A stretch of DNA of 51,659 bases from Opitutales bacterium (GTDB taxonomy: Bacteria > Verrucomicrobiota > Verrucomicrobiia > Opitutales > Oceanipulchritudinaceae): the NCBI GenBank assembly GCA_020831525.1, contig JAFIGH010000030.1:1-51659 (forward strand). Direction: 5' to 3'. Of this stretch, positions 5,089-8,180 are shown piece after piece (position 1 is the first letter of the stretch; the number at the start of each line of letters is the position of its first letter). A program made the position numbers and the translations under genes. The notes below the pieces were generated by a model. It was not told the DNA's origin, searched no databases, and was given only the letters and a program-made list of their open reading frames with translations.

Positions 5089-6303
5089 TTACGGTCCCCG
5101 CAGCACAACCGGACCGCCCGGCTCCCCCGGTTCCGTGCTCTCCTCCGCCGTGACAATAATCTCCACGGGCGCCACCGTCCCGGGGGGCACTTCGAAAAAA
5201 AGCGACCCTGAGCGGCCCGACAACTCTTCCGGCAGACCGCCCACGGCAACAAAGCCAATGTCCCCGACCGCCCCGCGCAGCCAGAGGTGGAAGTTCGTCC
5301 CCTCCTCCGGCTCGGGAAGGTTGTAGATATCCATGAAACCCCGTCCGGTCGTCTCGTCGAAGACCGAGAGCGCAAACGCAGCTCCGCCGCGGGGCACGTC
5401 TTCCGCATCCGCCGGGCCGGACATATCCGCGCCACCTTCCGGCAGCCTTCCGGAGCCCCATGCGCGGAACTCCGGAAGTCCGTCGCGGTCCACCATGGCG
5501 ATACCGGGCGACTGGAGTATCGATCCCGCCAGTTGCGCGAGCCCGAGGGGACCCCGCCCCGCCTCGCGTGCTTCGTCGGTCATCAACTCCATGACCGTGT
5601 ACCGCGCAAAGCCTTTATGGCCACCGAGCAGCGGCGCGGCGCGCCCGGCGAGATCGTCGAGCGAATCAAGCACGGCATCGCGCTCGAAGACGAGCGATTC
5701 GTTCGACTCTTCCAGCAGTCGGATGCGCGACTGCGCTTCGGCGGCAAAAATCTCCGCGTCCTCCGAATGTCCGCGCAGCCGGTCGCGTTCGGCGTGCAGC
5801 GCTTCGAGCCGCCGCGCGAGCGCCGGTTCACCGGCGGGAATCCCGTACTCCTCGAACAAAGCGGGATCAACCCGCACCATTTCACCCGTCTCCGCTTCCA
5901 CGGAACGCGCATCGCGCAACTCACTCACGAGAAACAGATTCAATCCCAGCATGACCAAAGCCGCAGCCGGCCAAAGCCATGTCCACACCCGCCCGTAAAC
6001 AACGGGTGCCTGCCGCCCCGCGGACGCTCCGCCGGGAAAGACAATCTTCTCGGCATCCTGCTCCTCCTCCTCCGCGCCCGAGCGAATCCCGCGCAGCAAC
6101 CGTTCTTCCACCTCCGGGCTGGGCGACTGCGACCGCGCCTCGGCGGCGGCGTAAAGGCTGAGGCTCTCGCGGAAATCATCCACTAGCGCGCGCAGCCCGG
6201 CATCGTTTTCAAGCCGGCTGGCGAAAGCTTCGCGCTCCGGCGCATCGAGCAGGTCGAGCGCGTAGAGGGCGGCTTTTTCTTCAAGTTGTGGAGGAATCGT
6301 CAC
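5089..6303 (-). CDS. RskA-like transmembrane anti-sigma factor
   Basis: This protein probably sequesters the ECF sigma factor encoded immediately upstream. A cytosolic N-terminal segment (ALYALDLLDAPEREAF, typical of zinc-less anti-sigma domains) is followed by one membrane span (WLWPAAALVMLGLNLFLV, about residues 108-126). Next comes an extracytoplasmic part that begins with heptad-rich, Glu/Arg-rich sequence suggesting a coiled coil (about 155-215). The C-terminal domain (about 300-404) matches the RskA fold, with FHLWLRG, GLPEE and GPVVLRGP near the end. The GTG at 6303 (MTIPPQLEEK) is chosen because it overlaps the sigma gene by only 23 bp; an ATG at 6339 is possible. The coiled-coil insert makes the periplasmic part longer than in typical RskA proteins. 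Release by regulated proteolysis is known for the family and is not shown here. Confidence 0.85.
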   Translation of the reverse strand: MTIPPQLEEKAALYALDLLDAPEREAFASRLENDAGLRALVDDFRESLSLYAAAEARSQSPSPEVEERLLRGIRSGAEEEEQDAEKIVFPGGASAGRQAPVVYGRVWTWLWPAAALVMLGLNLFLVSELRDARSVEAETGEMVRVDPALFEEYGIPAGEPALARRLEALHAERDRLRGHSEDAEIFAAEAQSRIRLLEESNESLVFERDAVLDSLDDLAGRAAPLLGGHKGFARYTVMELMTDEAREAGRGPLGLAQLAGSILQSPGIAMVDRDGLPEFRAWGSGRLPEGGADMSGPADAEDVPRGGAAFALSVFDETTGRGFMDIYNLPEPEEGTNFHLWLRGAVGDIGFVAVGGLPEELSGRSGSLFFEVPPGTVAPVEIIVTAEESTEPGEPGGPVVLRGP

Positions 6304-6877
6304 GTTTACGAATAATAGAGCGCAGCCGCTGCAAGCCACGGCGAATGTCTGATTTCACCGAGCCGAGCGGACGGTTGAGTTCCGCCGCGATCTCCGCGTG
6401 GGAAAAACCTTTGAAATAGGCGAGGGAAATACATTTGCGTTGATAGGGAGAAAGGCAATCAAGGATGTTGCGCAACTCGCGCCCGGTATCGCGGACATCA
6501 GCGATGTCTCCGGCGGACGGATCGCCCGAGGGAACCGGTCGCACATCTTCTTCCAGCTGCTCGTGCCCCGGCCGACGCTGGCGCTTTCGCAACCGGTCGA
6601 TGGCAATGCTGCGGGCCATGACGCACAGCCAAGTGTACGGCGAAGCGCGGTCGGGCTCGTAGTTGCCGGCTTTGTTCCAGGCTCTCGTAAAGAGATCCTG
6701 CAGAGCTTCCTCAGCCTCGCCGCGATCATTCAAAGACTTAACGAGAATTCCGAAAAGAACCCGGCTGTAGCGCGCATACAATGCTTGGAGCGCGGTGTCA
6801 TCGCCTCGGGCCATCCGCCCGATCCAATCAACCGCCTCCTCGCGCTCACGGGTACTGGCCTCTCGCTCCGAAGACAC
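6281..6877 (-). CDS. ECF-family RNA polymerase sigma factor
   Basis: The 198-residue protein contains the two domains of extracytoplasmic-function sigma factors. Region 2 (about 25-95) carries RYSRVLFGILVKSL, the acidic EEALQDLFTRAWNKA helix and the YTWLCVMARSIAIDRLRK -10-binding segment. Region 4 (about 140-190) carries LSPYQRKCISLAYFKGFSHAEIA and the helix-turn-helix LNRPLGSVKSDIRRGLQRLR. It is SigK-like, matching its RskA-like partner downstream. The start is the GTG at 6877; there is no ATG in frame before a stop upstream and no good Shine-Dalgarno sequence. A structured leader with an intrinsic terminator ends about 55 nt before the start, so expression may be controlled by premature termination as well as by the anti-sigma factor. 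Confidence 0.93.
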   Translation of the reverse strand: MSSEREASTREREEAVDWIGRMARGDDTALQALYARYSRVLFGILVKSLNDRGEAEEALQDLFTRAWNKAGNYEPDRASPYTWLCVMARSIAIDRLRKRQRRPGHEQLEEDVRPVPSGDPSAGDIADVRDTGRELRNILDCLSPYQRKCISLAYFKGFSHAEIAAELNRPLGSVKSDIRRGLQRLRSIIRKRDDSSTT

Positions 6878-6920
6878 AACACGGGACAGTAGGCAACCGC
6901 AGGCCGGAGAAAACTATTTT

Positions 6921-6967
6921 CCAAAAAAAATAAGGGGGAGCGCCGGCCGGGGGGACCGGGCTCCCCC
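6921..6967 (-). terminator. Strong intrinsic terminator in the leader of the sigma-factor gene
   Basis: On the minus strand GGGGGAGC pairs with GCTCCCCC (8 bp, 6967-6934), with further G/C pairing inside, and is followed at once by TTATTTTTTTT. This is a textbook Rho-independent terminator. It lies upstream of the ECF sigma start (6877) and in the same orientation, so it either ends a small RNA or attenuates transcription of the sigma gene. Confidence 0.75.
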
Positions 6968-7041
6968 GAATATCCCGCGCCGGTTCCGGAGACGCCGGAG
7001 CGGGTGAGCGGGGACGAGGGAGGCTGCCCCGCTCAGGCGGG
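6934..7041 (-). ncRNA. Structured leader RNA or small RNA upstream of the ECF sigma gene
   Basis: Three tandem hairpins can be drawn on the minus strand: 7034-7006 (GAGCGGGG/CCCCGCTC, perfect 8 bp), 7004-6974 (CCCGC and CCGG arms with one mismatch) and the terminator stem 6967-6934. A competing stem, 7041-7028 (CCCGC/GCGGG with a 4-nt loop), shares bases with the first, so two mutually exclusive folds are possible. The sequence upstream to about 7200 is also GC-rich and repetitive (GGCCTGGCCTGGCCCGG). No coding frame is convincing. I could not match it to 6S RNA, tmRNA, RNase P RNA, SRP RNA or a known riboswitch by eye. Confidence 0.4.
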
Positions 7042-7421
7042 TTGCTGAAAGCGAAAGGAAAAGACGGAGTTCAACCCCCGGACGGGAGACCGCCGGGCCA
7101 GGCCAGGCCGGAGCCAGTCAGAACTCGGCATGCATCAGGGTAACACACCGAAAACAAACCTGGACCGCGGCGGCTCCCGCTTGGGGTATTGAAACCACAC
7201 ATTCCCAAGACAACGAGGGCGAAAAAACTTTACCCGAGCGGCAACACAGCGGATGAGAAAGAACAACGGGAACTACCCGTATGCGGACACATACGGCGGA
7301 TGCGCCGGTCTGGATGCACCGGCGAAGCATATTCTTCAAAAAAATCTTCCCCCCGGACAATTCACGGAAAGGCGTGCGGATTCATTCGCCTTCCGCCGCC
7401 GGACAACCATGGTCTGCGCCC
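7042..7421. other. Non-coding stretch between the sigma leader and the acyltransferase gene
   Basis: The right half (about 7190-7420) is less GC-rich and contains no convincing gene on either strand. The left half continues the GC-rich repetitive leader sequence. The region must contain divergent promoters, but I found no good -35/-10 pair. Confidence 0.4.
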
Positions 7422-8180
7422 GTGACAGAGACATCCGGCAGCACACCTACCGGCCACGGTCCGCACGGCGACGCCCCGCCACGCCGCGCTGCCGGGCGCC
7501 CTTTCGAGAGCGGCACGGTCTTCCGCCTCTTCGGCTGGCGCAAGTGGATCTGCCGCCCCCTCGCCGCCCTCCTCTGGCTCTATCTTCGCTCCCTGCGGCT
7601 GCACATGGACGCGGAATCCCCCCGCGGGGGGGCCCCCCCCCCCGCCCCGCGCATCTTCGTCAGCTGGCACAACCGGTCCCTCCTCGCGCCCATCATGGCG
7701 AAGCGATTCTTCGACGCGGCCAACGTCGCCTGTCTCGTGAGCCCAAGCCGCAGCGCCGCATGGGAGGTCGCCTTCTACGAAGCCGTCGGCTTCCGCATCG
7801 TCCGCGGAAGCAGCAGCCGCCGGGGCATCGCCGCCGCCCGCGAACTTATCCGCGAGCTACGCGGCGGCCAAGATATCGCCGTTACGCCCGACGGACCGAG
7901 CGGACCCCTCCATGAAATCAAGCGCGGCGCACTCATTCTCGCCCGCCGCTCGCAGGCACCCGTGGCCTTTATCATACCCAATGCCCGTCACGCGCTGCGG
8001 CTGCCCACATGGGACCGCCACCTCGTCCCGCTGCCCTTCAGCCGCGTCGATGTGCGCCTCGTCATCCGCCCGCCCTATCCTGAATGCGGCTACGCCGACG
8101 AATCCGCCGCCCTTGCCGACTGGCGTGCCGTGCTAGCCTCCATCGACGAAGATACCGTGCGCCCCGGCGGCCGCGGTTAA
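7422..8180 (+). CDS. DUF374-type lysophospholipid acyltransferase-like protein
   Basis: The product (252 residues from the GTG at 7422) belongs to the LPLAT-like DUF374 family, in which characterised relatives are inner-membrane acyltransferases that act on lipid or lipid A precursors. A hydrophobic N-terminal anchor (WICRPLAALLWLYLRSL, about 42-58) is followed by the motif block FVSWHNRSLL (W82-H83), LVSPSRSAAWE, GFRIVRGSSSRRG and ITPDGPSGP-like VTPDGPSGP (about 154-162). Upstream ATG codons exist but lie in lower-GC sequence that does not look coded, so the GTG is preferred. A G7C11 homopolymer tract (7626-7643) lies in frame in the linker before the WH motif and is a potential slippage site. 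It begins a short plus-strand run with the next two genes. Confidence 0.85.
   Translation: MTETSGSTPTGHGPHGDAPPRRAAGRPFESGTVFRLFGWRKWICRPLAALLWLYLRSLRLHMDAESPRGGAPPPAPRIFVSWHNRSLLAPIMAKRFFDAANVACLVSPSRSAAWEVAFYEAVGFRIVRGSSSRRGIAAARELIRELRGGQDIAVTPDGPSGPLHEIKRGALILARRSQAPVAFIIPNARHALRLPTWDRHLVPLPFSRVDVRLVIRPPYPECGYADESAALADWRAVLASIDEDTVRPGGRG

Follow-up and report, generated by a model that had tools for sequence, protein, structure and literature searches.

On the minus strand, the stretch from about position 7180 to 6923 is probably an independent small-RNA gene of ∼250–300 nt whose 3' end is formed by its own intrinsic terminator, with the ECF sigma factor gene that lies downstream of it forming a separate transcription unit. 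Two properties that such a gene should have are found here: a correctly oriented intrinsic terminator that closes the 3' end and a conserved, structured and apparently non-coding block ahead of it. The window, by which we mean the whole 51,659-nt stretch of DNA that was analysed, is a single contig from a 5.3-Mb genome assembled into 184 contigs. Upstream of the sigma gene there is a DUF374 acyltransferase gene in the opposite (divergent) orientation, and the interval between the two is ∼400 to 590 bp, a range that is set by the choice of the acyltransferase start. We compared the window genome (G000) with two congeneric genomes that carry the region (G001 and G002); in each of the three, the alignment shows the block immediately preceding the sigma gene. 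The public MAG contigs SKLD01000327.1 and SLLG01000118.1 match the region at corresponding positions and are taken as the G001 and G002 records; the isolate label CSSed that they carry presumably stands for soda-lake sediment. The features, all of which are on the minus strand, are as follows.

7229 to 7310, minus strand: upstream DNA that contains ACGGGTAGTTCCCGT, a small inverted repeat (7280–7266; alignment)
7184 to 7228, minus strand: candidate promoter region, very conserved, before the first hairpin (alignment and inference)
7082 to 7180, minus strand: 5' domain, a long imperfect GC-rich hairpin (conserved at the sequence level)
7041 to 7081, minus strand: pyrimidine-rich linker of variable sequence (alignment)
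7006 to 7034, minus strand: hairpin A, with an 8-bp stem and CCUCCC in its apical loop (a single base difference among the three genomes)
6974 to 7004, minus strand: hairpin B, with a variable loop and upper stem (alignment)
6923 to 6967, minus strand: intrinsic terminator, with a stem at 6967–6934 and a T-run to 6923 (folding; kept in the three genomes)
6878 to 6922, minus strand: spacer to the sigma gene (alignment)
6281 to 6877, minus strand: ECF sigma factor gene with a GTG start at 6877 (best NCBIfam model SigK, with a score below the cut-off of that model)
5089 to 6300, minus strand: anti-sigma factor gene, 3' of the sigma gene (NCBIfam anti-sigma model, below cut-off)

Folding reproduces the three consecutive minus-strand hairpins and the strong intrinsic terminator that an earlier note on this DNA had described; the hairpins at 7034–7006, 7004–6974 and 6967–6934 have fold energies of −15.2, −18.1 and −29.0 kcal/mol, respectively, and the last of them is followed by the T-rich tail TTATTTTTTTT at 6933–6923. 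The G/C stem of eight pairs that the note assigned to the terminator is present, but the actual stem is longer, with 8 + 6 pairs and one bulge. A simple terminator scan of the window did not list the terminator at 6967–6923, probably because of this bulge. The extent given in the note also needs amending: its hairpins are real, but they account for just the 3' half of a longer minus-strand block (∼7228–6923) that is conserved and apparently non-coding, and the upstream continuation of this block to ∼7228 was missed. The 140-nt hairpin region has a z-score of −3.93, with none of 200 dinucleotide shuffles equally stable, and the 306 nt block has a z-score of −5.50 (0 of 100 shuffles). For the likely RNA itself (7181–6926, 256 nt in the window; 254–260 nt were folded per genome) the z-score is −3.9, with values of −4.7 and −4.1 for the homologues and no equally stable sequence among 150 shuffles in each case. 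Within the ensemble of the 256-nt RNA, hairpin A and the terminator have pair probabilities of 0.998 and 0.997, respectively. The loop of hairpin A, CAGCCUCCCUCG, is identical in the three genomes; its CCUCC is 74–100% unpaired in all of them and the last C of CCUCCC is unpaired about half of the time.

Compared with G002 and G001, respectively, the window is 97.2 and 93.8% identical over 7228–7084, 78 and 43% over the linker (7083–7051), 100 and 97.8% over 7050–7006, 84 and 78% over 7005–6974 and 88 and 90% over the terminator. Conservation of the upstream DNA (7229–7310) is moderate, at 79–85% identity. The sigma gene is 85% identical at the DNA level, which is below the core of the block, and its fourfold sites are 65% identical in comparison with both congeners (66/102 and 65/100); the corresponding values against G002 are 72% for the anti-sigma gene (153/212), 67% for the acyltransferase gene (83/123) and 49% for a response-regulator gene (26/53). 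As the core stands at 94–100% and the fourfold sites of the sigma gene at 65%, the core is under much stronger constraint than neutral sites. An edge of conservation is seen at the terminator in the comparison with G001, where identity drops from 90% to 54% in the spacer (6925–6878; 26 of 48 columns), and between G001 and G002 it goes from 83% in the terminator to 58% in the spacer. There is no such drop between the window and G002 (88% to 90%, with 43 of 48 spacer columns identical), so that in this pair the block has no visible end at the terminator.

The base changes within the helices are few. Hairpin B has one compensated pair (G–C to U–A), one U–A to U–G change and one pair that is broken in the window, and the terminator has one G–C to G–U change among the three genomes. 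Over the 3' half as a whole, three of the 40 pairs are broken in one genome and one is compensated; over the 5' half, no pair is changed on both sides and two of the 55 are broken in one genome. The earlier note had made its reading depend on compensating changes among relatives, and one was found, in the hairpin at 7004–6974, the other hairpins being too invariant to provide any. The hairpin A stem is invariant, so that covariation is uninformative there, and the covariation is thin overall because only three sequences are available. Judged from its sequence, the block is probably non-coding. An 80-aa open reading frame on the minus strand was considered and was rejected by eye as coding, since the differences in it are mostly residue-changing (five of six codon differences in its last part, counted by eye, alter the residue). 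The extension of a plus-strand frame through the block was rejected because of in-frame stops: this frame, which is open in G002, runs into a stop in G001, and in the window it is closed at 7254.

Upstream of the block no convincing sigma-70 promoter was found, with the best candidates having 7–8 of 12 matches and the promoter scan returning none. A weak promoter-like pair is present, TTGTCT at 7213–7208 and, after 17 nt, AATACC at 7190–7185 (GATACC in G001). Positions 7205–7184 are nearly invariant, in contrast to the linker bases with which they could pair; this suggests promoter DNA here and an RNA start near 7180. The outer pair of the ACGGGTAGTTCCCGT inverted repeat is A–T, G–T and G–C in the three genomes; the repeat is possibly an operator for the divergent genes or an upstream promoter element. 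On the other side of the terminator, the spacer keeps GAAAnTnGTTTTC and, 17–18 nt on, TACYGT in all three genomes, and together these could be a promoter of the sigma gene yielding a leaderless mRNA. Local alignment of the regions upstream of the RNA and of the sigma gene gave shuffle p values of 0.29, 0.61 and 0.025 in the three genomes, which we do not take as significant; in this alignment the window spacer slice was slightly offset relative to the slices from the congeners.

The earlier note had put forward two explanations for the hairpins, an RNA switch that attenuates transcription of the sigma gene and a separate small RNA that ends at the terminator. The latter is the better supported of the two, given the conserved structured block upstream, the unconditional terminator and the lack of an antiterminator. 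The former belongs to a broader alternative, which we regard as rather unlikely: that the block is a cis-acting leader of the sigma mRNA in which the terminator attenuates transcription, acting either as a switch that senses a ligand or temperature or as a partial terminator whose constant action holds sigma levels down. The position of the block speaks for a leader, as the sigma gene follows it directly in each of the three genomes and just 45 nt lie between the last base of the T-run (6923) and the sigma GTG (6877); neither a Shine–Dalgarno sequence before the GTG nor a clear promoter was seen in this 45-nt gap, and the spacer is 90% identical between the window and G002. Against G001, however, identity falls after the terminator, and the energetics do not favour switching. 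The overlapping stem at 7041–7028, from which the note had drawn two exclusive folds, can indeed be formed (−7.8 kcal/mol), but its ensemble probability is ∼0.0001 compared with 0.998 for the hairpin at 7034–7006, which makes it negligible at equilibrium. No plausible antiterminator appears in the folds of the RNA, and penalizing the terminator pairs changes the fold energy from −147.2 to −132.1 kcal/mol, so that the best terminator-free fold is worse by ∼15 kcal/mol. A switch with mutually exclusive folds was rejected on these energies. The loci of other genera also argue against a leader. In other genera, 14 sigma homologues were scanned over the 300 nt upstream of the matched start for a hairpin followed by a T-run. 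The values for the window and its congeners are −30.4, −26.3 and −31.8 kcal/mol, and a hairpin of equal strength was found at none of the 14, the best being −20.7 kcal/mol (L014) and the rest −14.7 kcal/mol or weaker, or none. Models of the 3' half (R1) and of the 5' half (R2), run with filters off on 17 loci from other genera (six sigma and 11 acyltransferase loci), gave best E values of 0.15 and 0.075, respectively, which are taken as chance. At one of the sigma homologues (L016) a short terminator-like hairpin that the scan did not list can be seen by eye, and it may terminate the preceding gene.

It is improbable, in our judgement, that the block gives rise to no RNA of its own and is instead a promoter/operator region that serves both the sigma operon and the divergent acyltransferase gene, accompanied by an ordinary terminator and by GC-rich folds that arose by chance. 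Both divergent genes do require promoters here, and 7310–7184 is conserved and contains an inverted repeat. The most conserved parts, however, are strong hairpins (7180–7084 and 7050–7006), and the z-scores are near −4 in all three genomes; furthermore, with the neighbouring acyltransferase gene running the opposite way, only a transcript initiated inside the block would give the minus-strand terminator something obvious to end. We give very little weight to a division of the block into two tandem RNAs, with the 5' hairpin (7180–7082) ending at the linker and hairpins A and B and the terminator forming a second RNA. Few parts are less conserved than the linker, which in G001 contains runs of seven and five T residues 3' of the long 5' hairpin (L032:4790–4830), so that a first termination site is possible in that genome; the seven-T run is absent from the window and from G002, though, and a separate promoter for the second RNA was not found. 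A single small-RNA gene with the terminator as its 3' end is the most likely reading.

The note had not been able to match the region to a known RNA family, and this holds: a covariance search against Rfam gave no matches in the window at gathering scores, and relaxed thresholds gave five hits with E values of 0.93 to 9.8 (CRISPR-DR28 and sX13 being the best), which is chance level. The long 5' hairpin was also considered as 6S RNA, and this identity was rejected because the 6S gene sits on another contig; of 19 genomes searched, 16 have a 6S RNA that scores above the cut-off, among them the three congeners, in which it is on other contigs. The tmRNA and RNase P RNA genes are on other contigs in the three congeners as well (the latter is partial in G002), and small SRP RNA was found on another contig in one of the three, the window's own genome. 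Across 273 genomes of the order, R1 and R2 each have strong matches only in the three congeners. Outside the genus, R1 gave 21 weak hits in these 273 genomes (E values of 0.004 to 0.8), six of which were followed up with DNA alignments and two with gene context (L076 and L081), both of these lying inside protein frames; R2 gave no hits outside the genus at E values of up to 1. R2 was also run, at E values of up to 0.1, on 384 genomes sampled from the class, among which the congeners are not listed, and returned the window's own genome only. For searches over 40 genomes the filters were stricter and lose weak matches; weak relatives may have escaped in this way. No viral contig matched an exact 26-base pattern, and a short DNA match was noted on contig C42 of G002.

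Homologues of the acyltransferase are present in all 17 genomes of the family. At none of 12 compared acyltransferase loci (L096–L107) was a sigma homologue seen, and the sigma/RNA neighbourhood may therefore be genus-specific. A heparinase-like gene is found near the acyltransferase in eight of these 12 loci, as it is in the window. With the Pfam model, Hfq was found in none of the three congener genomes (G000, G001 and G002), and the same search was positive in six of 14 control genomes. Among the titles and abstract openings listed in literature searches, none described an sRNA from the Opitutales.

GsrN, from Caulobacter and its relatives, is described as an sRNA of the general stress response with homologues that are typically near ecfG/sigT ECF sigma genes; in the Caulobacteraceae its C-rich loop is the most conserved part, and the katG leader contains a G-tract with which this loop pairs (PMC5869019). 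Going by that account, GsrN and the present RNA are alike in being small, in having an intrinsic terminator and a C-rich loop that is exposed, and in lying near an ECF sigma gene. They differ in that GsrN is ∼106 nt in length and is activated by sigma-T/EcfG, whereas the present RNA is ∼250 nt and the neighbouring sigma factor is nearest to SigK models; a promoter motif shared with the sigma gene is not significant here, and the two were compared in sequence via Rfam only. The Xanthomonas RNA sX13 (RF02232) is described as structured, with apical C-rich loops that repress mRNAs carrying G-rich motifs near the start; both the C-rich loops and the G-rich target motifs are required and Hfq is dispensable (PMC3771888). 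In that description sX13 has three C-rich loops and sits at the polA locus, while the present RNA has one clear CCUCCC loop. Membership of the sX13 family was rejected, as the Rfam score is 15.8 bits compared with a gathering score of 50. The hallmark of sX13-type RNAs, a conserved and unpaired C-rich apical loop, is nonetheless found in all three genomes by folding and alignment. C-rich loops arise easily in a GC-rich genome; the present loop is nevertheless conserved. By analogy, an invariant C-rich loop in combination with varying hairpin B and terminator loops is the pattern expected of sRNAs whose pairing partners are G-rich sites close to start codons. Attenuators and riboswitches are similar in having a terminator before a gene, but the present RNA lacks an antiterminator fold and an Rfam riboswitch match.

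We infer that the RNA is transcribed with a 5' end near 7180, in which case it would comprise, in order, the long 5' hairpin, the pyrimidine-rich linker, hairpin A with its C-rich loop, hairpin B and the terminator. It would most likely act in trans and without Hfq. The CCUCCC loop, being complementary to G-rich Shine–Dalgarno-like sites, may pair with the ribosome-binding sites of mRNAs, and this pairing would alter the translation or stability of the presumed targets; such a mode of action would resemble that of sX13- or GsrN-type RNAs. More tentatively, and with the expectation that it is unlikely to hold in full, we suggest that the RNA could be part of the regulon controlled by the SigK-like ECF sigma factor encoded next to it, as a lineage-specific, Hfq-independent RNA acting through its C-rich loop and hence a convergent counterpart, outside the Proteobacteria, of the alphaproteobacterial GsrN. 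If it is expressed, the RNA would make Hfq-free riboregulation in the Opitutales open to testing in a concrete case and would add a further ECF sigma gene that is paired with a C-rich-loop sRNA.

Within the acyltransferase (DUF374) frame, the window has a 35-base run consisting only of G and C at 7618–7652. The proteins of the congeners differ at this place, and the run may be a low-complexity stretch or an assembly artefact.
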